Positions 20,289-32,751 of a stretch of 35,739 bases of DNA are shown piece by piece (the first letter of the stretch is position 1; every line of letters starts with the position of its first letter). The DNA is from an uncultured Bacteroidota bacterium (GTDB lineage: Bacteria; Bacteroidota; Bacteroidia; Chitinophagales; Chitinophagaceae). The stretch is taken from NCBI GenBank assembly GCA_903829015.1, contig CAIKOJ010000009.1, positions 1 to 35,739 of the forward strand, given 5' to 3'. The notes beneath the pieces were generated by a model. It saw nothing but the letters and a program-made list of their open reading frames with translations. It was not told where the DNA came from and did not search any database. The position numbers were made by a program, and so were the translations under genes.

Positions 20289-23200
20289 ATGAGGCAAAAC
20301 CTTTTCTCCCTATTTGTGCTCTTTTTGCTGTTTCCGGCATTGCTAAACGGTCAGGTGACCGTTGCTCCCGGAGTTTCAGCTGCAACACTGGTAACAAAAC
20401 TTGTCGGATCAGGCGTTGTGATCATCAACCCCACGATCAACTGCACTAGCAACGCATATGGTACGTTCTCCGGCCCATCCTCACTGAGTTTCGATAGTGG
20501 CATTGTACTTACTAACGGGCAAGCCGGGACGATCGGTCCTGCCATCGGAGCATTCGGACCTGCTACCGGATTTGCAAGTACCAACAATACTACTGCGGGA
20601 GATTTACAACTTACATCGCTCGCCGCCTCCCCCACATTCGACGCCTGTATTCTTGAGTTTGATTTTAAACCTGCGGGCGATACTATCAAGTTCAATTACG
20701 TTTTCGGTTCTGAGGAATATGGATGTTGTGTCTGTTCGGGCTATAATGATGTTTTTGCATTTTATATTTCCGGGCCGGGTTTCTCAGGCCCCACTAATAT
20801 GGCAATTGTTCCGGGCACTACCGTACCGGTTTGTATCAATAGCGTGAATTGCTCCACCGGATCTCTGTGCACAGCTATGGGACCGGGAGCTCCCTATTGC
20901 GCACACTACGTGAACAACTCAACCGGAACTAGTATCACCTATTACGGAATGACCACAACCATGCAGGCAATTGCTGCAGTGACTCCGTGCGATACTTACC
21001 ACTTAAAGTTAGCTATTGCTGATGCCGGCGACCACATACTCGATGGAGGTGTGTTTTTGAAAGCGGGCAGTCTCAGCTCCACCGGTACCCATATCACACC
21101 ATTAGGGTTGTTTCCTGCCGACACGACTATTGGCGCACAGTTTACAGTTAGAGGTTGTTCACCCGGTAAATTCATTTTCTCGCGTCCCAGCCCTACAGCA
21201 GCTCCGCTTACAATACATTTCAGTATAGCTGGTACCGCCATTAATGGTTATGACTATGCTACTATAGCAGATAGTGTCATCATTCCTCCGTATGCCACTA
21301 CCGATACGCTGTATATTACGCCGCTAACCGTGCCGCCTACCGGAGTAAAAACAGTCAAGCTCTCCATCTCAGGAACATACACTTACACCTGTGGAGGATC
21401 AACTACGTTGGTAAGCGATACTGTTCAGTTGAAAATATTTGATGCAATAAGCCCTATTACCGGCCCCACCAACGGATGTATGGGCAATTTCTTTCCTTAC
21501 ACCGACTCAATGGGCGGCGGCACATGGACTTCAACATCAACAAGCGTTTGTACCATTGGCTCTACAAGTGGAATAGCTTACGGAGTCAGCACCGGCGTTA
21601 CTGTGATCTCTTACGGGTACCTGCCGGTATGTGCTGTTACAAAATCAGTTACTATCAACCCGATACCGGCTGCTATAACCGGCGGCGGATTGATTTGTGT
21701 AGGCACTTCCACAACATTGAGCTGCACTACTGGTGGAGGTTATTGGGCTCGTTCTAACGGCAATGCTTTTGTTGGTTCGCTCACAGGTATAGTTACGGGT
21801 GTTTCCGTGGGTACAGATACGATCAGCTACATCATGCCTACCGGTTGCAAAAGTGTTTTTGTAGTCACTGTCAATCCTATACCCGTACCTATATCCGGCA
21901 CAACGGTTATTTGCGACGGCACATATACACTGCTTACCGATGCCTCGGCCGGCGGCTATTGGAGCAGTGCGGCACCCGGCATAGCCATTATTGGATCTAC
22001 TACAGGAATGCTCACAGGTACCAGTGCTGGCATCACTGTTATCACCTACACTTTGTCACCCGGCTGCTTCACCACAACCAGTGTAACAGTAAATCCCGTA
22101 CCGTTACCTATATCAGGCCCATCACATTTCTGTGTTGGCTCGTCTGTAACACTTACTGACCCAAGTTCGGGAGGCGTATGGAGTACTTCTACACCCGGTG
22201 TCATTACCATAGGTTCGTTAACCGGAACTGTAACAGGCGTTGGCGCAGGTGGTGTGATCGTAAGTTATACGCTACTCATGGGCTGCTACACAACAACCTA
22301 TTTTGTTACAGATCCATTGCCGACACCCATAGCAGGTGTTTTTACTCTTTGTGCAGGCGATACAACTATTTTATACAGCACTCCCACCGGTGGATCATGG
22401 AGTTCTTCATTGCCTTCGGTTGCCAGTATTGGTACTTACTCGGGCGACCTTGCCGGGATATCCGCTGGCACAACGGTTATTTCCTACACTTCCCCCATGG
22501 GCTGTTCTGTTTCAGCTACTGCAACGATCAACCCTACCCCGCCAGCTATTGCAGGTTCCCTTGCAGTTTGCAACGGCCTTACAACCACCCTTACCAATTC
22601 AATGAGCGGTGGTGCATGGATCAGTAGTGATCCGTCGATAGCAGATATCGACGCAAGCACCGGCCTGGTAACTGGTATGTCGTTGGGATCTGCGATCATC
22701 TCTTACATCATGCCATCGGGCTGTTATACCTGGGCTATGGTCACTGTAAACTCAGCGCCCCTGCCCATTACCGGACCTTCGGCTTTATGCGCCGGACGAG
22801 ACACAACATTATCTGATCTGGTACCCGGTGGCACATGGAGTTCCTCTTTAACCGGCATAGCCACCGTCAATCCATCTACGGGTGTATATCATGGTGTATC
22901 ATCGGGCATTGCAACCATTACCTATTCTTTTGGTGCGGGATGCCTCGCCACCTACCGTGTAACCATCAATCCGGCACCGGCACCCATAGCTGGTACGATG
23001 CGTATCTGCGCAGGAGGCTCCACCACATTAACAGACCCTTCATTAGGCGGAATCTGGAGCAGCAGCACACCTACTGTAGCATCTATCGGCGTCACTACCG
23101 GTTTTGTTATAGGTGGTTCATCGGGCGTAGCCACCATCACTTACTTAGCCAGCGGCTGCAGTACGGTTGCCACATTTACAGTAAATCCTAATCCTGGTTC

Positions 23201-26200
23201 TATCGCAGGATCCAACCGCGTTTGCCCCGGCACCAGCACTACGCTTACAAATTCTTTTGCCGGCGGCACATGGACCAGCAGCGCACCTTCTGTGGCTACC
23301 ATTGGCTCATCATCCGGCCTGCTCACAGGAGTAGTAGTAGGCGTTGCAACAGTCAATTATACTTTACCTACCGGTTGTTTTGTTACTAAGCCTGTTACGG
23401 TCAATCCTATTCCCGGCGCAATTTCAGGGCCATCCACAGTTTGCATAGGTGTATCCATTACACTCACCAATGCAACATCGGGCGGCACCTGGAGCAGAAG
23501 CAGTGCTAACGTTTCAGTTGGCTCGCTTACCGGCGTTGTTACCGGACTGATCGCAGGCACTACAAACATTACATATACACTACCTACAGGTTGCTATATT
23601 GTAAAACCAATCACTATCAACGCTGCGCCCGGTGCAATTACGGGTACCATGTCTGTCTGCCCGGGCTCCACAACTACGCTATCCAGCATTACACCCGGCG
23701 GCACATGGACATCTGCCACTACATCTGTTGCAACTATTGGTTCGGCTACCGGCCTCGTCTCTGGCATACTCCCCGGCACAACCGTTATCGGTTACTCCCT
23801 GGGTTCAGGCTGCAGCATTTCAGCTACTGTTACTGTCAACCCCGTCCCTTCTTTGTACGCGGTTACGGGTGGCGGCAGCTACTGTGTAGGTGGTACTGGT
23901 CTCCACATTGGCCTTAGTGGCTCTGTGCCGGGCAGCACCTACCAGTTATATCTGGGCACCTTCACCATTGGTGCACCGCTTGCAGGCACAGGTAGCAGTC
24001 TGGATTTCGGATTACAAACCGGCGCAGGCACTTACACAGTTTTAGCCACTAATGCTTTGGGCTGCACACGAGCTATGGCAAGCAGTGCCGTTATATCTAT
24101 AAATCCCGGCCCAACCGGCATTGGTGGACCTTCTGCCGTTTGTCTTGGGGCGGGAGCCGCACTAACCACAACTCCGGCAGGCGGCGTGTGGAGCAGCAGC
24201 GCACCACTTACAGCGTCCATAGGATCTGCAACCGGACTGGTTACAGCACTGGCAATAGGCACCACCAATATCACTTACACATTACCTACAGGATGCTACG
24301 CCACTAAAGTCATTACAGTAACATCGGCACCCGGACCCATAGTTGGTGCATCATCCGTTTGTGCAGGATCCGCTACTACATTTACAGATGCGGTTCCCGG
24401 AGGTATATGGAGCAGCCCATCAGTTATTATATCCGTTGGCTCTGTTACGGGTGTGGTAACAGGTGTTTCAGCAGGCACTGCTACAATCACTTATTCTTTA
24501 GGGTCTGGTTGTATTGTTTCCAAATCTTTAACTGTACTGGTATCACCTGCCGCCATCACCGGCACTCTGGCACTTTGCGCGGGCACCAGCACAACACTGC
24601 GCGACGCCACCATTGGCGGCACATGGGGTAGTGGCTCTACCGGCATTGCCTCCATCGGTTCTACCACCGGTACTGTAACGTCTTCCGGTACCGGCACGGC
24701 ATTGATCTCTTACACAGTTGGCACCTGTGCCGCTACGGCCACCATCACCATCAACCCCATGCCTGCAGCTATTACTGGTGCGGCAACACTGTGTGTATCA
24801 TCAACAGCACCGCAGTCTGATATCACCCCCGGAGGAACGTGGAGTGCTTCATCTCCTTATATTTCAATTGGCTCAGTATCAGGCATCGTTACCGGAATTT
24901 CAGCAGGATCTGCTGTCATCACTTATTCAATAGCAGGCTGCCTTGCCACCCGTACCGTAACTGTCGTCAACACCCCCGCTATCACCGGCCCTACAACGGT
25001 TTGCGCAGGTGCCAACATTACGCTCTCTGGAACGGGCAGCGGTACATGGTCATCCGGCTCCGGTACAGTTGCTTCCGTAGGTTCATTAACAGGAATTGTA
25101 TCAGGCGCAACAGTTGGCGTGGCAGTGATCACTTTTACTACTGGCACAGGCTGTCTTGCGACCCGCAATGTTACAGTTACTCCGGGCCCTTCACCTATAT
25201 CGGGCAGTGCTGCAGTTTGCGTAGGCAGTACCATTACACTCTCTACATTAACCACAGGCGGCACATGGTCCAGCAGCAACGTATCTGTTGCCGCCATGGG
25301 TAGTGCTCCCGGCAGCGTAACCGGCGTAGCAGCAGGCACTGCTGTGATCTCATACGTTGTAGGTTCGGGCTGTGTGGCTGTAAAACCAATCACGGTCAAT
25401 GCCCTGCCTGCAGCCATTGGCGGCACCACATCTGTTTGCATAGGCTACCTTACCACTCTTACCAATGCAACACCCGGTGGCACATGGAGCTGCACCGCCA
25501 CAACTATTGCCACGGTAAATCCTGTATCGGGTATTGTAGGTGGTGTAGGTGCTGGCAGTGCTGTGGTTACCTACACCACAGGCGCTGGATGCACTGCAAT
25601 TACTACTGTTACCGTCAACACGCCACCTGTACCTATCGTCGGCCCTTCAGTAGTGTGTATGGGATCTAGCGTTACCGAAACCGATGCATCTACCGGCGGC
25701 ACATGGCTCTCCAGCAATCCTGTTATAGCCACTGTGGGTTCGCTCACCGGTATTGTAACCGGCGTTAACACCGGCTACACTGTTATTTCCTATACCACAG
25801 GCACAGGCTGCGTATCTGCCAAAATAGTCACTGTCAATCTTCCACCGCCCGGCATATCCGGCACCAGCCGTGTTTGCGTAGGTTCGTCTGTAACACTTAC
25901 CGATCCTGCCGTTGGCGGCACATGGAGCAGCAGCAATACTTCTATGGCTACCGTAGGTTCAGTCTCGGGTATTGTATCAGGTATTTCGGGTGGCATTGTC
26001 ACCATTAGCTACAATGTTTCTGTAGGCTGCACCGCCACATATCCCGTAACCGTAAATTCCGTACCACCTATTACAGGGATCAGAAATCTGTGTGCATGGA
26101 GTGATACCGTTACTGTACACGATGCCACTTCTGGCGGGCTATACAGCAGCACCCTCGTTACTGTTGCCAATCTGGGCAGTGGCAATGCAAGGGTCACCTC

Positions 26201-27029
26201 CAGTATTCCGGGTTATGGCACCGTTACCTATACTGCGCCTTCGGGCTGCACCACCAGTGTACCTATTACCGTTAATCCGCTGCCGGGGCCAATCACGGGC
26301 AACTACAATATCTGCATAGGTATCACATCTACCCTTCGCGATACCATGGTTGGCGGCCGCTGGACAAGCAGCGCAACCACCATAGCTACTGTCGGGTCGG
26401 CAACCGGCACAGTGTCCGGTGTGTCAGCCGGCACTGCCTACATAACCTATACACTGCCCACAGGCTGTATCGTTGACACACCAATACACGTAATCCCTTC
26501 TCCGGCAGGCATTACCGGCTGGGGCGGCACCATTACTATTGGCACTTCAACCACCTACTCCAATGCCACACCCGGCGGACTATGGAGCTGCAGCAACCCA
26601 TCTATAGCGGCTATTGGGATTGGCAGTGGTACAGTTACCGGTTTAACAGCGGGCGTTGCAACTATCAGTTATACAGTTGGTTCGGGCTGTCCTGCAGTGC
26701 GCACCATTACAGTATCTGCACTGATAGGCACCAAGCCCGGCCACAATACACCGGCACTCACTGATATTACCATTGTACCCAACCCCAACCGCGGCACATT
26801 TGTGATCAAAGGCTCCCTGCAGTTCAATAATAAAATTGGCGAAACAGACGTACAGATAGAGGTAACCGATATGCTGGGAAGAACCATTCACACCCAAAAA
26901 GCAACAACTACCAACGGCGTACTGCGTTCTGAAATAACCCTGGATAACGCAATAGCTAATGGCGTGTACCTGCTACACCTGCGTACCGATGATACCCGCA
27001 GGGTGTTTCATATTACAGTAGAGAGATAA
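20289..27029 (+). CDS. Giant multi-domain T9SS-exported adhesin with Ig-like repeats
   Basis: A 2246-residue surface or secreted protein. Domains in order: signal peptide (1-22, ending LLNGQ); choice-of-anchor-L domain (about 25-260) with VFGSEEYGCC, YNDVFAFYISGPG, PCDTYHLKLAIADAGD and GGVFLKAGSLSS; Calx-beta-like region (about 265-385; FSIAGTAINGYDYATI); 23 Ig-like (BIG2-type) repeats of about 73 residues (387-2147); and a C-terminal T9SS type A sorting domain (about 2157-2246; IVPNPNRGTFVIKG, VTDMLGRTIH, GVYLLHLRTDD). One different 88-residue module (codons 23853-24116) interrupts the repeats after number 11. Almost every repeat has two cysteines (VCxG and GC), so a disulfide per domain is likely. 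It should cross the outer membrane by the T9SS, of which gldM/gldN are in this window. Adhesion or biofilm function is inference. Confidence 0.9.
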   Translation: MRQNLFSLFVLFLLFPALLNGQVTVAPGVSAATLVTKLVGSGVVIINPTINCTSNAYGTFSGPSSLSFDSGIVLTNGQAGTIGPAIGAFGPATGFASTNNTTAGDLQLTSLAASPTFDACILEFDFKPAGDTIKFNYVFGSEEYGCCVCSGYNDVFAFYISGPGFSGPTNMAIVPGTTVPVCINSVNCSTGSLCTAMGPGAPYCAHYVNNSTGTSITYYGMTTTMQAIAAVTPCDTYHLKLAIADAGDHILDGGVFLKAGSLSSTGTHITPLGLFPADTTIGAQFTVRGCSPGKFIFSRPSPTAAPLTIHFSIAGTAINGYDYATIADSVIIPPYATTDTLYITPLTVPPTGVKTVKLSISGTYTYTCGGSTTLVSDTVQLKIFDAISPITGPTNGCMGNFFPYTDSMGGGTWTSTSTSVCTIGSTSGIAYGVSTGVTVISYGYLPVCAVTKSVTINPIPAAITGGGLICVGTSTTLSCTTGGGYWARSNGNAFVGSLTGIVTGVSVGTDTISYIMPTGCKSVFVVTVNPIPVPISGTTVICDGTYTLLTDASAGGYWSSAAPGIAIIGSTTGMLTGTSAGITVITYTLSPGCFTTTSVTVNPVPLPISGPSHFCVGSSVTLTDPSSGGVWSTSTPGVITIGSLTGTVTGVGAGGVIVSYTLLMGCYTTTYFVTDPLPTPIAGVFTLCAGDTTILYSTPTGGSWSSSLPSVASIGTYSGDLAGISAGTTVISYTSPMGCSVSATATINPTPPAIAGSLAVCNGLTTTLTNSMSGGAWISSDPSIADIDASTGLVTGMSLGSAIISYIMPSGCYTWAMVTVNSAPLPITGPSALCAGRDTTLSDLVPGGTWSSSLTGIATVNPSTGVYHGVSSGIATITYSFGAGCLATYRVTINPAPAPIAGTMRICAGGSTTLTDPSLGGIWSSSTPTVASIGVTTGFVIGGSSGVATITYLASGCSTVATFTVNPNPGSIAGSNRVCPGTSTTLTNSFAGGTWTSSAPSVATIGSSSGLLTGVVVGVATVNYTLPTGCFVTKPVTVNPIPGAISGPSTVCIGVSITLTNATSGGTWSRSSANVSVGSLTGVVTGLIAGTTNITYTLPTGCYIVKPITINAAPGAITGTMSVCPGSTTTLSSITPGGTWTSATTSVATIGSATGLVSGILPGTTVIGYSLGSGCSISATVTVNPVPSLYAVTGGGSYCVGGTGLHIGLSGSVPGSTYQLYLGTFTIGAPLAGTGSSLDFGLQTGAGTYTVLATNALGCTRAMASSAVISINPGPTGIGGPSAVCLGAGAALTTTPAGGVWSSSAPLTASIGSATGLVTALAIGTTNITYTLPTGCYATKVITVTSAPGPIVGASSVCAGSATTFTDAVPGGIWSSPSVIISVGSVTGVVTGVSAGTATITYSLGSGCIVSKSLTVLVSPAAITGTLALCAGTSTTLRDATIGGTWGSGSTGIASIGSTTGTVTSSGTGTALISYTVGTCAATATITINPMPAAITGAATLCVSSTAPQSDITPGGTWSASSPYISIGSVSGIVTGISAGSAVITYSIAGCLATRTVTVVNTPAITGPTTVCAGANITLSGTGSGTWSSGSGTVASVGSLTGIVSGATVGVAVITFTTGTGCLATRNVTVTPGPSPISGSAAVCVGSTITLSTLTTGGTWSSSNVSVAAMGSAPGSVTGVAAGTAVISYVVGSGCVAVKPITVNALPAAIGGTTSVCIGYLTTLTNATPGGTWSCTATTIATVNPVSGIVGGVGAGSAVVTYTTGAGCTAITTVTVNTPPVPIVGPSVVCMGSSVTETDASTGGTWLSSNPVIATVGSLTGIVTGVNTGYTVISYTTGTGCVSAKIVTVNLPPPGISGTSRVCVGSSVTLTDPAVGGTWSSSNTSMATVGSVSGIVSGISGGIVTISYNVSVGCTATYPVTVNSVPPITGIRNLCAWSDTVTVHDATSGGLYSSTLVTVANLGSGNARVTSSIPGYGTVTYTAPSGCTTSVPITVNPLPGPITGNYNICIGITSTLRDTMVGGRWTSSATTIATVGSATGTVSGVSAGTAYITYTLPTGCIVDTPIHVIPSPAGITGWGGTITIGTSTTYSNATPGGLWSCSNPSIAAIGIGSGTVTGLTAGVATISYTVGSGCPAVRTITVSALIGTKPGHNTPALTDITIVPNPNRGTFVIKGSLQFNNKIGETDVQIEVTDMLGRTIHTQKATTTNGVLRSEITLDNAIANGVYLLHLRTDDTRRVFHITVER
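21447..26729 (+). repeat. 23 Ig-like coding repeats plus one inserted module
   Basis: Repeats of about 219 bp encode the pattern PITGPSxVCxGSSxTLTD, GGTWSSSxxSVATVGS, TGxVTGVSAGTATITYT and GCxxTxxVTVNP. Eleven units lie before and twelve after the 264-bp insert at 23853-24116 (protein motif GGGSYCVGGTG to GCTRAMASSAVISINP). DNA identity between units is modest, so they are old duplications. The last unit lacks the first cysteine. The unit count comes from manual alignment. Confidence 0.88.
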
Positions 27030-27420: not shown

Positions 27421-28173
27421 ATGTTCTACTCTTACAACGAATTCAAAGCCATCGAAAACCAGCAATCCCCTTATGCCAAAGAGGTTTTCGCCGAACTAAT
27501 ACAGAATATTACCAACCCCGAGTTCCCATGTTACTATGCCAAAAGAGTAATTCCCAAAAACAGCCTCTACGTTTCTTTTATTGAAAATTTCGAAAACAGA
27601 CAGGCAATGTTTAAGCAGGCTATGAAAGCCTTCATGCAATATGCCGAAATCGAAAGAGAATGTGACCCCTACCGTGTTTTTGTGCTATCCTTCAAGGTTG
27701 AAACAACGTCCTGGGAAGAGGACAATGCCCTTATGTATGATTTCATGCACTACCTAAATCAGCACGATCCCGAACCATGGTTCGAAGAAATGCCAACTGA
27801 CACCAACGATCCGCTTTGGTCTCTTTCTTTCATGGGCATGCCATGGTTTTTCAACCTCAATTCTCCAAATAACACACATCGCAAAAGCCGCAACGTAACC
27901 AACACATTCTCGCTGGTCCTCCAGCGCACAGATAGCTTCGAACAATTACTCAGAAAAGAACTGGCAGACGAAGTAAGAGAAAAACAAAGAATAATAATCC
28001 GCAAGGAAATAAGAAAAAGGATTGGCATCTACGATGGCCAGTCCGTATCTCCATCACTTGCCGGCGAAGCCGACAATTACAATAATCTGGAGTGGATACA
28101 GTTTCATCTACCCGACCTGAACTCCCAAAAACCACAGGCAACCTGCCCTTTTAAACACTTCGCACAACCATAA
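27421..28173 (+). CDS. YqcI/YcgG-family protein (possible heme-dependent N-hydroxylase)
   Basis: The 250-residue product matches the YqcI/YcgG family (PF08892). Features are FPCYYAKRVIPKNSLYVSFIE (about 38-58), SFMGMPWFFNLNSP followed by RKSRNVTNTFSLVLQ (about 137-168), an FEQLL helix, IYDGQSVSPSLAGEADN, and the C-terminal CPF. Characterised members, DcsA in D-cycloserine and GntA in guanitoxin biosynthesis, are heme-dependent N-hydroxylases of arginine or a guanidino compound. Whether this protein binds heme or hydroxylates is inference. It is the first of four co-directional genes (gaps 31, 11 and 45 nt) ending in an AdoMet decarboxylase-spermidine synthase fusion, which suggests a small basic substrate such as arginine, agmatine or a polyamine. 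No signal peptide, so cytoplasmic. Confidence 0.72.
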   Translation: MFYSYNEFKAIENQQSPYAKEVFAELIQNITNPEFPCYYAKRVIPKNSLYVSFIENFENRQAMFKQAMKAFMQYAEIERECDPYRVFVLSFKVETTSWEEDNALMYDFMHYLNQHDPEPWFEEMPTDTNDPLWSLSFMGMPWFFNLNSPNNTHRKSRNVTNTFSLVLQRTDSFEQLLRKELADEVREKQRIIIRKEIRKRIGIYDGQSVSPSLAGEADNYNNLEWIQFHLPDLNSQKPQATCPFKHFAQP

Positions 28174-28204
28174 AGCAAATCCATAACTATCACAAAACAA
28201 ATTT

Positions 28205-28894
28205 ATGACACCAACGTCAAATATCACTTTCAGCTATTACCAACCATCGGAATACAGCAAATTCAGATCACTCATGCAACTCTGCTTTTCCGATATGGGC
28301 GGCGAGTATGCAAGCGAGGAAGAAATGACGTTGCTCTCCGACCTATACCCAAGAGGTCAGATAATGGCGTATGATAATGACGTGCTCATCGGTGCAGTTA
28401 TATCGCGTATAGTACCCTACGAGTCATTCAATAAGGCACATACACAAGCCGAGATCCTGGATCTGAGCAGATACATAAACGATGCAATTATAGGCAACGC
28501 CCTCTACGGACTTGACATATTCGTGCATCCCGACTACAGAACGATCAAACTGGGCAACACCCTGTACAGCAAATTGATAACTGAATTTACTTCCGACAAT
28601 TTCACTGATTTCCTCGGGGCTTCAAGAGTATCTGGCTACGGTAAGTACAAGTCTGAAATGTCTCTTGAAACCTATGTAGAAAAGGTACGACTTCGGGAAA
28701 TAAAAGACGGAGCACTTAGTTTTCATTTTTACAATGGTATGGTCGTATTCGATGTGATGTATGACTTCAACATAGGCGATACTGCATCATCGGGTTGCGG
28801 TGTAGCAATGGGCTACACCAATCTCAACTACAATCCACTTCAGCCGGTATTCTCTGAAAGACAGAAACAACTCACCTCATTATTGGTGCATTAA
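28205..28894 (+). CDS. GNAT acetyltransferase of the nitrilase-associated type (stand-alone)
   Basis: The 229-residue GNAT has the features of the acetyltransferase domain that is usually the N-terminal half of GNAT/carbon-nitrogen hydrolase fusions. These are PRGQIMAYDNDVLIGAVISR, ALYGLDIFVHPDYRTIKLGNTLYSKL (acetyl-CoA site, about 99-124), FLGASRVSGYGKYKSEMSLETYVEKV (about 139-164), and the distal ALSFHFYNGM and ASSGCGV. Here no hydrolase follows. The acetyl-CoA loop is RTIKLGN rather than RxxGxG, so cofactor binding may be changed. It is clearly related to the N-terminal half of the next gene, which begins 11 nt after this stop, so the pair probably arose by tandem duplication. It probably acylates an intermediate of the pathway; the substrate is unknown. 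Confidence 0.75.
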   Translation: MTPTSNITFSYYQPSEYSKFRSLMQLCFSDMGGEYASEEEMTLLSDLYPRGQIMAYDNDVLIGAVISRIVPYESFNKAHTQAEILDLSRYINDAIIGNALYGLDIFVHPDYRTIKLGNTLYSKLITEFTSDNFTDFLGASRVSGYGKYKSEMSLETYVEKVRLREIKDGALSFHFYNGMVVFDVMYDFNIGDTASSGCGVAMGYTNLNYNPLQPVFSERQKQLTSLLVH

Positions 28895-28905
28895 AATAGC
28901 TATAC

Positions 28906-30273
28906 ATGATCAGCATAAGGCAATACGAAGAATCAGATTATAAGGGGGTTATAGCCCTGTTCGATGACGCATACTCAGGCATGGAAACAAATTATGCAAG
29001 CCCCGAAGAACTGCAAAAACTATCCGAATGCTTCGCTGAAGGGCAGCTAATGGCAACTATTGGCAACGAAATCGTCGGACTCATATTGAGCCTTCCGGTT
29101 AGTTACAATAAAGTCACTGCCGCTCCTTGCATGGCTGAGTTATACAACCCTTCTTTATTCAAAATACTTGCGCAGGATGCCGACAGTCTTTTTGCTTTGG
29201 AAATACTGGTAAGAACTGACCACCAGAGAAAAGGAATTGGTAAACTCTTAAATAATGCTATCAACAATATCCTGAAAACAAACAATTTCAAGGCTTTTAT
29301 TGGTGTATCACGTCTTTCCGGCTACAGCCAGCATCAGGAGAAGCTCTCAGCAACAGACTATATAGAAAAAGTAAAATCAGGTCATCTGTCCGATCCTTCC
29401 TTAAGCTACAATATCAGCAACAACATGATGCCGCAAAAAGCCATTACCAATTACTTCGAAGCTGACAAAGCATCAGGCGGATACGGGGCGCTGGTTATTC
29501 AACCCAACCCTCAATATAGCGAAACACCAATTGAACAGTTTTTCGCAGGCGACACCAACTTTGTAAAACTGCCCGATGAAAGCCTGCTATCGAAGGAAGA
29601 AAGACACTCAATACTTACTACACTCAAACAAACCGGTTTCACTTTCGAGCACAATGGCTATCCATCCTGCTGGGGCAAAGCATTCGAGAACTACTCCACC
29701 ATGGAAGCCTATCTCAAACCAGAGGCATCAGACGAAACCATTTCCAATCTCTGCAAACCAATTCTCTCCAGAATAGATGCTCTACTAAAAAAACAAGGTC
29801 TTGCCGTTTCTGTACTTACCGACAGCAAAACCGGCACTAGCTACACCGCAGGAGATTTCAGACATGCGTTGATAGAGCCAAAACAAACCATACTTCACCT
29901 CGACGATCTACGTATCGACGGCTCTGCAAAACCAGACTTCGAATTACCTGAAGAACTGAAGGGCAATTACCACCAATATTCAATACTGATGCTGCTTGCC
30001 GATGAAGGAGCAAAAGCAACCTTACGCATTTACAACAAACAATACACCTCTGCCGACAACCAATTCGTTATGCCAAACGGCTGGCAATTCTCTGATGATG
30101 TAGTCTCCAACACCAGCTACGTCGAGTTTCAGCCGAAGGCGGGCGACGCATTCATCATGAACAATCATTGCTATCACGATGTCATAGGCGGCGACGTTGC
30201 ATCGACTTGGTGGCTATACAGCACCTACGTGCTACACATTCCCGAAACAAACCAAGCTTTTTTATACATCTGA
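28906..30273 (+). CDS. GNAT domain fused to a putative 2OG/Fe(II) oxygenase-like domain
   Basis: A 455-residue fusion. Residues 1-205 are a GNAT with a complete acetyl-CoA motif (EILVRTDHQRKGIGKLL, about 99-115) and the GVSRLSGYSQHQEKLSATDYIEKV block shared with the preceding gene. Residues about 215-455 resemble a double-stranded beta-helix oxygenase. H331-L-D333 (TILHLDDLRIDG) looks like the HxD iron motif. A distal histidine follows in GDAFIMNNHCYHDVIGG (H421 or H424), preceded by strands such as QYSILMLLADEGAKATLRI. The arginine that usually binds 2-oxoglutarate about ten residues after the distal His is not obvious, so the co-substrate is uncertain. This C-terminal domain takes the place held by a carbon-nitrogen hydrolase in typical GNAT fusions. 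Acylation plus hydroxylation of one substrate is the simplest reading. Confidence 0.65.
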   Translation: MISIRQYEESDYKGVIALFDDAYSGMETNYASPEELQKLSECFAEGQLMATIGNEIVGLILSLPVSYNKVTAAPCMAELYNPSLFKILAQDADSLFALEILVRTDHQRKGIGKLLNNAINNILKTNNFKAFIGVSRLSGYSQHQEKLSATDYIEKVKSGHLSDPSLSYNISNNMMPQKAITNYFEADKASGGYGALVIQPNPQYSETPIEQFFAGDTNFVKLPDESLLSKEERHSILTTLKQTGFTFEHNGYPSCWGKAFENYSTMEAYLKPEASDETISNLCKPILSRIDALLKKQGLAVSVLTDSKTGTSYTAGDFRHALIEPKQTILHLDDLRIDGSAKPDFELPEELKGNYHQYSILMLLADEGAKATLRIYNKQYTSADNQFVMPNGWQFSDDVVSNTSYVEFQPKAGDAFIMNNHCYHDVIGGDVASTWWLYSTYVLHIPETNQAFLYI

Positions 30274-30318
30274 TCTTTCACAAAAAATTCTTTTATCATC
30301 ATCTAAATCACACAAATT

Positions 30319-31599
30319 ATGCACACACTCGGAATTCAGATTTTAGCAGAGTACTACGAATGTTCAGCCGAACTTTTAAGTGACGTTTCCTTCGTCGAAA
30401 ACATGTTGCTTCAGGCAGCCGAAGAGATGCAGGCAACCGTCATTACATCAGCCTTTCATCACTTTTCACCCATGGGCGTCTCTGGCGTAGTAGTTATTCA
30501 GGAAAGCCATATTGCTATACACACATGGCCTGAATACCAGTATGCCGCTATCGACATTTTTACGTGCGGTACCGAGCTGCAACCTATTAAAGCATACAAG
30601 TACCTGCTCAAGGCACTGAAAGCATCAAACGGATCTATGATGGAATTACTGCGTGGTCACAAGTCGCTTATGCCTGCCGGTGCCGAGGCACCACCGTTCA
30701 GCGAAGATGCTGTTACACCGGTATTTCACCGCAATGTATGGTTTACTGAGCGCAACAACGGCATGGCATTTTCTCTGCGTCACAAAGGAAATGTGCTGCA
30801 CAACAAGCGTTCCGATTTCCAAAAAGTACAGATGTACGACACTTACGAATACGGCAAAATGTTGGTACTCGATGAGAAGATCATGACCACCGAAAGAGAT
30901 GAATTTGCATACCACGAAATGGTTTCCCACGTTCCATTGCTTGTTCATCCAAATCCTAAACGAGTACTGGTAATAGGTGGCGGCGATGGCGGCACAGCAC
31001 GCGAGGTGCTCAAACACAATTCGGTAGAAGAGGTAGTTGTAGTAGAGATTGATGGCGATGTGGTAACAGTTTGTCAGGAACACCTGCCTGGCCTTGCCGA
31101 CGCCTTCTCTGATAGTCGTGTAACCCTAAAAATAGAAGATGGCATTGCTTGGCTGAAAAAACAGGAGAGTGATCAATTCGATGTGATCATCGTCGACTCT
31201 ACAGACCCTGAAGGTCCAGCCGAAGGCTTGTTTGGCAATTCGTTCTACGAAGATGTGTATCGCACACTGAATGAGAACGGCATAGTAGTGGTACAGGGCG
31301 AATCACCCATGTTCAACCAAAGTACATTCCAGGCTATACGCCAGTGCCATGCAGGCATATTCGGTCCAGAGAACGTACATACCTATCTTGTTCATATCCC
31401 TACCTACCCATCGGGCATGTGGAGCTTCGGCTATGCGTCAAAGGGTCTGCATCCCACTCTCGACCTCGATGAAAACAGAGTAACAAAATTCTGCAATCAG
31501 CATCCGCTCAAATATTACAACCCAGGCATTCATAAGTCTGCATTTGTGCTGCCAAACTTTGTAAAAGAAATGGTAGACACCGAACCATTGTATGCATAA
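30319..31599 (+). CDS. speDE: S-adenosylmethionine decarboxylase-spermidine synthase fusion
   Basis: A 426-residue two-domain enzyme. Residues 1-118 are a bacterial pyruvoyl AdoMet decarboxylase. E62-S63 in VVVIQESH is the self-cleavage site that creates the pyruvoyl group, H68 (IAIHTWPEY) and C83 (IFTCG) are the processing and catalytic residues, and numbering equals that of Thermotoga maritima SpeD. After a linker of about 18 residues, residues 137-426 form a full aminopropyltransferase: WFTERNNGMAFS, EYGKMLVLDEKIMTTERDEFAYHEM, GGGDGG (220-225, decarboxylated-AdoMet site) and the catalytic VDSTDP (D293/D296). The fusion makes decarboxylated AdoMet and uses it on a diamine acceptor, usually putrescine to spermidine. 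No putrescine-forming gene lies nearby. All key residues are intact. Confidence 0.93.
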   Translation: MHTLGIQILAEYYECSAELLSDVSFVENMLLQAAEEMQATVITSAFHHFSPMGVSGVVVIQESHIAIHTWPEYQYAAIDIFTCGTELQPIKAYKYLLKALKASNGSMMELLRGHKSLMPAGAEAPPFSEDAVTPVFHRNVWFTERNNGMAFSLRHKGNVLHNKRSDFQKVQMYDTYEYGKMLVLDEKIMTTERDEFAYHEMVSHVPLLVHPNPKRVLVIGGGDGGTAREVLKHNSVEEVVVVEIDGDVVTVCQEHLPGLADAFSDSRVTLKIEDGIAWLKKQESDQFDVIIVDSTDPEGPAEGLFGNSFYEDVYRTLNENGIVVVQGESPMFNQSTFQAIRQCHAGIFGPENVHTYLVHIPTYPSGMWSFGYASKGLHPTLDLDENRVTKFCNQHPLKYYNPGIHKSAFVLPNFVKEMVDTEPLYA

Positions 31600-31842: not shown

Positions 31843-32751
31843 CTATTTCGGATTCTTTTCCTTGTACTTAAACACAACAGTGCGGTTCACAGCATGGCCA
31901 TCAGATTTTACTATGACCTCGCAATTCAGGAAGTTGCGGAAGGTAAATTCATATATCGGGCACTCCGGATTGGTGAATAAGAACTGATTGCGCGCTATTA
32001 GTCTTTTAATAAATGGAACCTTGCCGGCAATGGTAATTTTTTCAGCAGTACCTACCGGTAATGCACGAAAACACTCAGGCGCCACATTCCCACTTTTCTC
32101 CTCAAATTTCTTGGTCACCTTCCACTCCGGAAAATAAACCGAACGCTCCTTCAGTTTCCCATTTTCAGCATAATAGAAATTCTCTACGTGCACCACATCC
32201 CTGTTGTTGTCATTCAGCCTTACTTCCTTATACTTTACGTTCTTCTTGTTAAAGTACTCCTTGGTATAGAACTCAATTCTCCCGTTAAAATAAGAGCATT
32301 CACTTGCTACCACTTCACCCGTCTTTTTGTCGGTCGTATAGTCGCAAGTCTTTCTGTAGGTGTTGCCATTCACCTTGTTATCTTCAAAATGGTAGGTTTT
32401 CCTGCGCTTATCATCATATTTCCACTCATTCATTACCATCAGGTTGTCATCCTTATATTCCTCCGTTCTTGCTATCAGCTTGCTTTCATTAAAATACTGC
32501 ACCTTTTTATAGATTGACCTATCCCGCATAGGGAAAGTAACAGTAAGTGTCACCAGGCTATCGGGCGATATGAATATCATAGCGCTATCAGTCATCGTCA
32601 GTTTAGAAGTATCGTTGGCTGCGTATGCGTAGGTGTACTGGTGTATCAAAGTAGCCGTCTGGTAGGTATTCCAGCCTCCCTTAAATGTAGACTGAGCCTG
32701 TAAATTATAATGAAACGTAAGTAAGAGAATAACGAATAAAATTTTGTTCAT
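31843..32751 (-). CDS. Secreted protein, unknown function
   Basis: Not recognised. The 302-residue product has a signal peptide (MNKILFVILLLTFHYNLQAQ). The middle of the chain has a loose repeating pattern of Tyr, Lys and Asn strands (KKVQYFNESKLIARTEEY, MNEWKYDDKRRKTYHFED, ENFYYAENGKLKERSVYF). It resembles the antitoxin- or MORN-like beta-hairpin repeats common in Bacteroidota secreted proteins. The C-terminal part contains two Cys near NPECPIYEFTFRNFLNCEVIV. It is monocistronic, with the hairpin at 31712-31738 downstream. The gld operon terminator separates it from the genes upstream. Confidence 0.65.
   Translation of the reverse strand: MNKILFVILLLTFHYNLQAQSTFKGGWNTYQTATLIHQYTYAYAANDTSKLTMTDSAMIFISPDSLVTLTVTFPMRDRSIYKKVQYFNESKLIARTEEYKDDNLMVMNEWKYDDKRRKTYHFEDNKVNGNTYRKTCDYTTDKKTGEVVASECSYFNGRIEFYTKEYFNKKNVKYKEVRLNDNNRDVVHVENFYYAENGKLKERSVYFPEWKVTKKFEEKSGNVAPECFRALPVGTAEKITIAGKVPFIKRLIARNQFLFTNPECPIYEFTFRNFLNCEVIVKSDGHAVNRTVVFKYKEKNPK

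Follow-up and report, generated by a model that had tools for sequence, protein, structure and literature searches.

A small, patchily distributed Chitinophagales gene set combining a predicted guanidine N-hydroxylase of the YqcI/YcgG family, two GNAT acyltransferases and a putative iron oxygenase

Contig 9 (CAIKOJ010000009.1) of the uncultured Chitinophagaceae genome GCA_903829015.1 (4.0 Mb, 225 contigs) was analysed over its 35,739 nucleotides (nt), a stretch referred to here as the window. It contains four adjacent genes, which encode a protein of the YqcI/YcgG family (gene 1), a stand-alone GNAT acyltransferase (gene 2, GNAT-A), a second GNAT domain (GNAT-B) fused to a putative iron oxygenase (gene 3), and a fusion of S-adenosylmethionine (AdoMet) decarboxylase with spermidine synthase (gene 4, SpeD-SpeE). 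As a first-pass annotation of the DNA letters had described, the four open reading frames (ORFs) are co-directional and separated by gaps of 31, 11, and 45 nt; all lie on the + strand, are open, and start with ATG (Table 1). The gene families named at that stage are borne out by Pfam and NCBIfam, and for the oxygenase part by the predicted fold. Genes 1 to 3 belong to a real, small gene set that is conserved in the order Chitinophagales and patchily distributed.

The family PF08892, to which gene 1 belongs, was detected in five of 396 Chitinophagales genomes, and three of these carry the cassette, namely the window genome and two genomes termed G691 and G771. As in all genome searches reported here, this number describes a sample, and in several of the searches only part of the first-look candidates was scored in some genomes. 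In G691, the genes for GNAT-A, YqcI, GNAT-B, and the oxygenase lie on one strand, with neighbours overlapping or at most 20 nt apart, and no pathway genes were recognised on either side. Contig 98 of G771 encodes YqcI, a 125-residue ORF without Pfam match, GNAT-B, and a separate oxygenase, with GNAT-A located on another contig (contig 13). YqcI, GNAT-B, and the oxygenase are linked in 3/3 genomes and GNAT-A in 2/3. Identities among the three genomes amount to 44–53% for YqcI, 36–45% for GNAT-A, 48–62% for GNAT-B, and 40–44% for the oxygenase; measured against the window proteins, the relatives are 36–52% identical (YqcI 44–48%). The conserved co-occurrence envisaged earlier for all four genes stands for this set, whereas speDE adjoins the cassette in neither of the two other genomes. 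The exact four-gene row including speDE was found in the window genome only among those sampled and was rejected as a conserved unit.

Gene 1 matches PF08892 with an E-value of 3.3e-37 (128.8 bits, cut-off 27). The GntA equivalog model NF041366 gives 43.6 bits at a cut-off of 145, and gene 1 is thus not GntA by that model. Among proteins of solved structure, only AglA, an enzyme of the argolaphos pathway (PDB 9UB3 and others), is significantly related to it by sequence (six entries with three distinct sequences, best E 4.8e-19). A predicted structure derived from six sequences (predicted local distance difference test, pLDDT, 63.5; predicted template modelling score, pTM, 0.68) was compared with solved structures using Foldseek, and five AglA entries came out on top (E 8.9e-10 to 6.2e-9; next 0.11). 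The model adopts the AglA-type sandwich fold, with a TM (query) of 0.53–0.57 and 20–22% identity in the fold alignments. In AglA, Cys44 is the heme thiolate, Arg166 and Arg200 bind the heme propionate, and Phe152 and Phe182 stack the substrate (excerpt of PubMed Central (PMC) article PMC12866846). Cys37 of gene 1 aligns with this heme ligand (Cys47 in ChmN) and is invariant in all three cassette YqcI proteins, as well as in 9/9 aligned rows. The other four residues correspond to Arg157, Arg198, Phe143, and Phe173, respectively, which are also kept in all three; the equivalent of Lys196, the third propionate partner of AglA, falls beside an alignment gap and is not placeable. Characterised YqcI/YcgG members hydroxylate guanidines (excerpts of PMC12866846 and PMC10849742). 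Family, heme cysteine, and AglA-like predicted fold support the guanidine N-hydroxylase reading of the first-pass annotation, and gene 1 is likely a heme N-oxygenase of guanidino groups, as predicted from sequence and model.

Both GNATs are related to Acetyltransf_1: GNAT-A matches this profile with E 1.7e-4 (22.3 bits, over the cut-off of 20.7) and GNAT-B with E 0.0046 (17.7 bits, under the cut-off). They are homologous to each other (29% identity, E 6.3e-25). Relatives 44–45% identical to the window GNAT-A occur within the G691 cassette and, in G771, downstream of a SpeD homologue. The GNAT-B rows of the three genomes form one group with 100/100 support, and the cassette GNATs separate from 12 nitrilase-fusion GNATs with the same support. 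A nitrilase-like part lies beside the GNAT in 38 of 40 loci examined. Weaker stand-alone GNATs without such a part are found in G038 (E 3e-13) and G058 (E 1e-12), at loci L012 and L013, and G691 has a further, distant one (E 2.5e-10); stand-alone status by itself is therefore not unique to the cassette GNATs. A GNAT-A profile (A4), for which the sequences of the window, of G691, and of G771 were used, matches at 1e-30 or better in 63 of 199 genomes of the G691 family. Within these 199 genomes, such matches lie in short frames in G691 (two) and G771 (four) only, and the remaining ones, among those listed, lie in frames of 437–590 residues. For the occurrence of stand-alone GNATs in two given genomes out of 199, a value of 5e-5 was obtained but left unused, because those genomes had gone into the profile. 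The stand-alone GNAT at L012 adjoins a class-III aminotransferase gene.

The C-terminal part of gene 3 and its two relatives have no Pfam match at E 10. Its predicted fold is a WelO5-like double-stranded beta-helix, and the putative iron ligands of the H-x-D...H motif, H331, D333, and H424, are invariant in the three cassette oxygenases. Fold matches include the WelO5 halogenases and SadA, an N-substituted ʟ-amino acid dioxygenase, at ~14% and ~11% identity. WelO5 has a Gly at the position of the Asp in H-x-D, unlike gene 3, which has the Asp; the entry title 'WelO5 G166D variant' agrees with this. In both other cassette genomes the oxygenase is a separate gene (ORFs L017:10643-11404 and L020:2748-3581). 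This fusion of GNAT-B and oxygenase in the window, against two separate genes elsewhere, supports a joint task of both.

As had been proposed, gene 4 encodes a SpeD-SpeE fusion, which by its sequence is an ordinary one of a known type. It matches AdoMet_dc (E 7.7e-40) and Spermine_synth (E 1.4e-63), exceeds the NCBIfam cut-offs of SAM_DCase_Bsu and speE, and contains Ser63, His68, and Cys83, the residues named for class 1b AdoMet decarboxylases (excerpt of PMC10407285). Comparable fusions of class 1b SpeD with an aminopropyltransferase are described from Ca. Pelagibacter (excerpt of PMC11107197); gene 4 differs from them in adjoining a YqcI cassette. At E 1e-30, gene 4 is matched in four of 60 relatives (own genome included) and in none of 34 congeners, 25 of which are listed as at least 90% complete, although a lone diverged SpeD could escape this threshold. 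Either the window genome has thus acquired speDE or the congeners sampled have lost it. For the window genome, a carboxyspermidine route was rejected (TIGR01047, carboxynorspermidine decarboxylase, 49 bits against a cut-off of 409); the low TIGR01047 scores are probably those of LysA relatives. TIGR01047 exceeds its cut-off in none of 22 genomes of the window genus (own included), and this genus may lack the two common spermidine routes, with the speDE of the window genome as the exception.

A connection between polyamine genes and GNAT-A appears on contig 13 of G771. There, a divergent SpeD homologue (PF02675, 87.3 bits) is followed at intervals of 27 and 30 nt by two GNAT-A genes, whose products share 45% and 36% identity with GNAT-A of the window; a TonB-dependent receptor gene precedes the row (L052:3444-8038). 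A divergent SpeD homologue of this kind may be a decarboxylase of arginine or of ornithine (excerpt of PMC10407285), and of 18 bacterial spermidine synthases, 17 convert agmatine to N1-aminopropylagmatine (excerpt of PMC11107197). Since this product keeps the guanidino group, the target of YqcI enzymes, it would bridge SpeDE and YqcI chemistry. A polyamine or agmatine link to the cassette is plausible but weak.

Table 1. Features of the four-gene locus, in window coordinates
Feature	Position	Strand	Remark
Gene 1, YqcI/YcgG family	27421-28173	+	250 residues; predicted heme-thiolate guanidine N-hydroxylase
Gene 2, GNAT-A, stand-alone GNAT acyltransferase	28205-28894	+	229 residues
Gene 3 (GNAT-B + oxygenase part), whole ORF	28906-30273	+	
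GNAT-B domain, N-terminal part of gene 3	28906-29535	+	domain border approximate
WelO5-like iron oxygenase domain (predicted), C-terminal part of gene 3	29536-30273	+	H331, D333, H424 invariant
Gene 4 (SpeD-SpeE fusion), whole ORF	30319-31599	+	
SpeD domain of gene 4, class 1b AdoMet decarboxylase	30319-30657	+	Ser63, His68, Cys83 present
SpeE domain of gene 4, aminopropyltransferase	30733-31599	+	PRK00811 348.7 bits, cut-off 260

The four genes are directly preceded by an ORF of 2246 residues (20289-27029), in which many similar repeats are visible by eye and the G+C content is ~0.53, compared with ~0.43–0.45 around it. The next long ORF after gene 4 is convergent (31843-32751) and has no Pfam match. 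Consensus scans found 6 promoter-like sites (9.1 in shuffles) and 12 terminator-like sites (5.1 in shuffles). Four of the latter are on the + strand, each within an ORF, and the gaps between the four genes hold none. Neither a riboswitch nor a tRNA was found in the window.

In 398 genomes of the G691 family, the YqcI profile A1 matches strongly in G691 and G771 and weakly in G833 (1.2e-9), where the neighbouring gene encodes DUF1989. In G449 and G493, YqcI lies outside a cassette: in the former next to a gene for DUF1989 and an ORF that has a LysE-like match, in the latter next to an ORF without Pfam match. The C-terminus of gene 3 matched one of 395 genomes of the phylum and a profile of the three oxygenases one of 295 genomes of the class, in each case the window genome itself. 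From a contig collection, one of 16 candidate stretches was confirmed, and this is apparently contig 98 of G771 (same ORFs; JAAFIM010000048.1, a Chitinophagales metagenome-assembled genome). Viral contigs gave no matches and phages none for gene 3; in plasmids, only the GNAT part of gene 3 was matched (16 records) and no oxygenase. A different YqcI pairing was seen twice: in two Chitinophagales genomes besides the cassette carriers the YqcI gene overlaps a DUF1989 (PF09347) gene (L019:903-2151, L032:797-2070). On two Rhodobacterales plasmids, the genes annotated after YqcI encode a cupin protein and an amino acid permease, and an annotated Lrp/AsnC regulator is divergently oriented (L035:4308-7299, L037:4299-7352).

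From these data we infer a tailoring cassette, all reactions and the product of which are predictions. Based on family, heme cysteine, and fold, YqcI would N-hydroxylate a small compound derived from arginine at its guanidino group, and GNAT-A and GNAT-B would, judging by their fold, acylate amine or N-OH groups of the same compound. The WelO5-like oxygenase may then hydroxylate a carbon of the acylated intermediate; its fusion to GNAT-B suggests that the two act in succession. In the weakest step, the substrate may come from the SpeD-SpeE fusion in the form of an aminopropylated amine, either spermidine or N1-aminopropylagmatine. The probability of this proposal, including a possible supply by SpeDE, is considered to be evenly balanced.

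Several observations weigh against it. The set was found in three genomes only, two of them from one family, and the cassettes have no recognised gene for a redox partner, an exporter, a regulator, or a ligase. In the gene 1 model, pLDDT is <50 at residues 33–43, which include Cys37, and at residues 191–250; the oxygenase model, built from three sequences, has a middling pLDDT of 70.5. The GNAT profile scores are weak and the substrates of these enzymes are unreadable from sequence. In usual 2-oxoglutarate oxygenases, an Arg or Lys after the distal His holds 2-oxoglutarate. In the alignment of the three cassette oxygenases, no Arg or Lys after H424 is invariant, and the domain of gene 3 is therefore called oxygenase-like, with putative 2-oxoglutarate dependence; Arg374 (A2 R164) is a possible substitute. 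The earlier interpretation of gene 3 as a GNAT with a putative 2-oxoglutarate/Fe oxygenase stands for the fold and the H-x-D...H motif. With regard to polyamines, G771 has a SpeD-SpeE fusion 47% identical to gene 4 on contig 110, away from the cassette, and in G691 SpeD is on contig 34 and two SpeE-like matches, on contigs 11 and 12, belong to longer frames, likewise unlinked. A PF02675 (AdoMet decarboxylase family) gene occurs in 47 of 150 genomes of the G691/G771 family, so that SpeD in both cassette genomes could be due to chance (P 0.097); a statistical tie of the cassette to SpeD within the family was rejected as not significant. TIGR01047 exceeds its cut-off in one of 28 genomes, G691, which counts for coincidence.

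The separate contigs of these genes also favour the strongest alternative, in which the cassette acts on free ʟ-arginine or an arginine derivative and speDE is a mere neighbour producing ordinary spermidine. The six bacterial YqcI/YcgG members characterised so far act on arginine derivatives, and the K225E variant of AglA accepts free arginine (excerpt of PMC12866846). This position is occupied by Glu in 8/8 non-AglA proteins aligned, gene 1 included, which looks like the family norm. A native counterpart of the AglA K196R/K225E double mutant in gene 1 was considered and dropped, because Glu 225 is present in all eight non-AglA proteins and the K196 site lies in a gapped stretch on which two alignments disagree. 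An arginase-family gene comes after speDE in G046 and G049, as expected of ordinary agmatine-based spermidine synthesis. On the other hand, AglA Arg179, which holds the backbone carbonyl of the substrate, is replaced by Thr, Ser, and Thr in the three cassette proteins (Thr in gene 1), GNAT-A adjoins a SpeD homologue in G771, and, given the lack of matches in the congeners at E 1e-30, speDE is no regular neighbour within the genus. Use of arginine independent of speDE is regarded as possible but doubtful.

A metallophore or signal is rather unlikely. An N-hydroxyguanidine and/or hydroxamate on a short amine or polyamine would chelate metal, and the sole genomic hint of metal binding is the TonB-dependent receptor gene that precedes SpeD and the two GNAT-A genes in G771. 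Such receptors are very common in Bacteroidota, and neither a TonB receptor nor an exporter was recognised beside the window or G691 cassette. As a precedent, the YqcI enzyme ChmN makes the precursors of graminine, which binds metal in chalkophomycin (excerpt of PMC10849742).

Formation of an aminolipid is quite unlikely. Here, the GNATs would attach a fatty acyl group to a nitrogen of arginine, agmatine, or a polyamine, and hydroxylation of the head group or the chain would fall to the oxygenases, a logic resembling that of hydroxylated ornithine lipids. This would agree with the lack of a recognised exporter gene in any cassette and with a third GNAT-A-like gene in G771, which overlaps a fatty-acid-hydroxylase gene (PF04116), itself overlapping a 2Fe-2S ferredoxin gene (PF00111; L053:5206-7047). 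The trio is possibly a redox partner or lipid-modifying unit, but it lies on another contig, the GNAT in it shows the greatest divergence (branch 1.66), and no acyl-ACP or O-acyltransferase gene was recognised in the cassettes. A chance neighbourhood of unrelated genes, for which the uniqueness of the four-gene row among the genomes sampled could be taken to speak, is very improbable and for genes 1 and 3 largely refuted by the recurrence of YqcI, GNAT-B, and the oxygenase in two other genomes, and of GNAT-A in one, with the order changed and the fusion split; speDE may still be a chance neighbour.

Returning to the tailoring cassette, its enzyme families are known, while the combination appears undescribed: in agreement with the first-pass annotation, which knew of no pathway with exactly this gene set, no description was found among the open-licence PMC papers listed. 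AglA resembles gene 1 in the respects given above and differs in overall identity and at positions 225 and 179; no phosphonate gene was recognised by eye near the window locus, although no search was aimed at such genes. ChmN (chalkophomycin) and GntA (guanitoxin) are members of the same family that oxidise arginine-derived guanidines, and none of their pathway partner genes was recognised by eye in the window, again with no search aimed at them. GNAT/carbon-nitrogen hydrolase fusions have a GNAT domain 23–29% identical to that of gene 3, whereas the cassette GNATs are without a hydrolase part and form a separate group (100/100).

A minimal cassette that joins YqcI to a pair of acyltransferases and an iron oxygenase, and that may be supplied by a polyamine synthase, is a compact starting point towards a new N-hydroxyguanidine metabolite of Bacteroidota and would connect guanidine oxidation with agmatine and polyamine metabolism. 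In one specific version, judged unlikely, N1-aminopropylagmatine made by SpeDE would, instead of being hydrolysed to spermidine, be N-hydroxylated by YqcI at its guanidino group, acylated at its amines by the two GNATs, and hydroxylated by the fused oxygenase. If true, acylated N-hydroxyguanidino-polyamines would be made by this route, and polyamine metabolism would have a new branch point.

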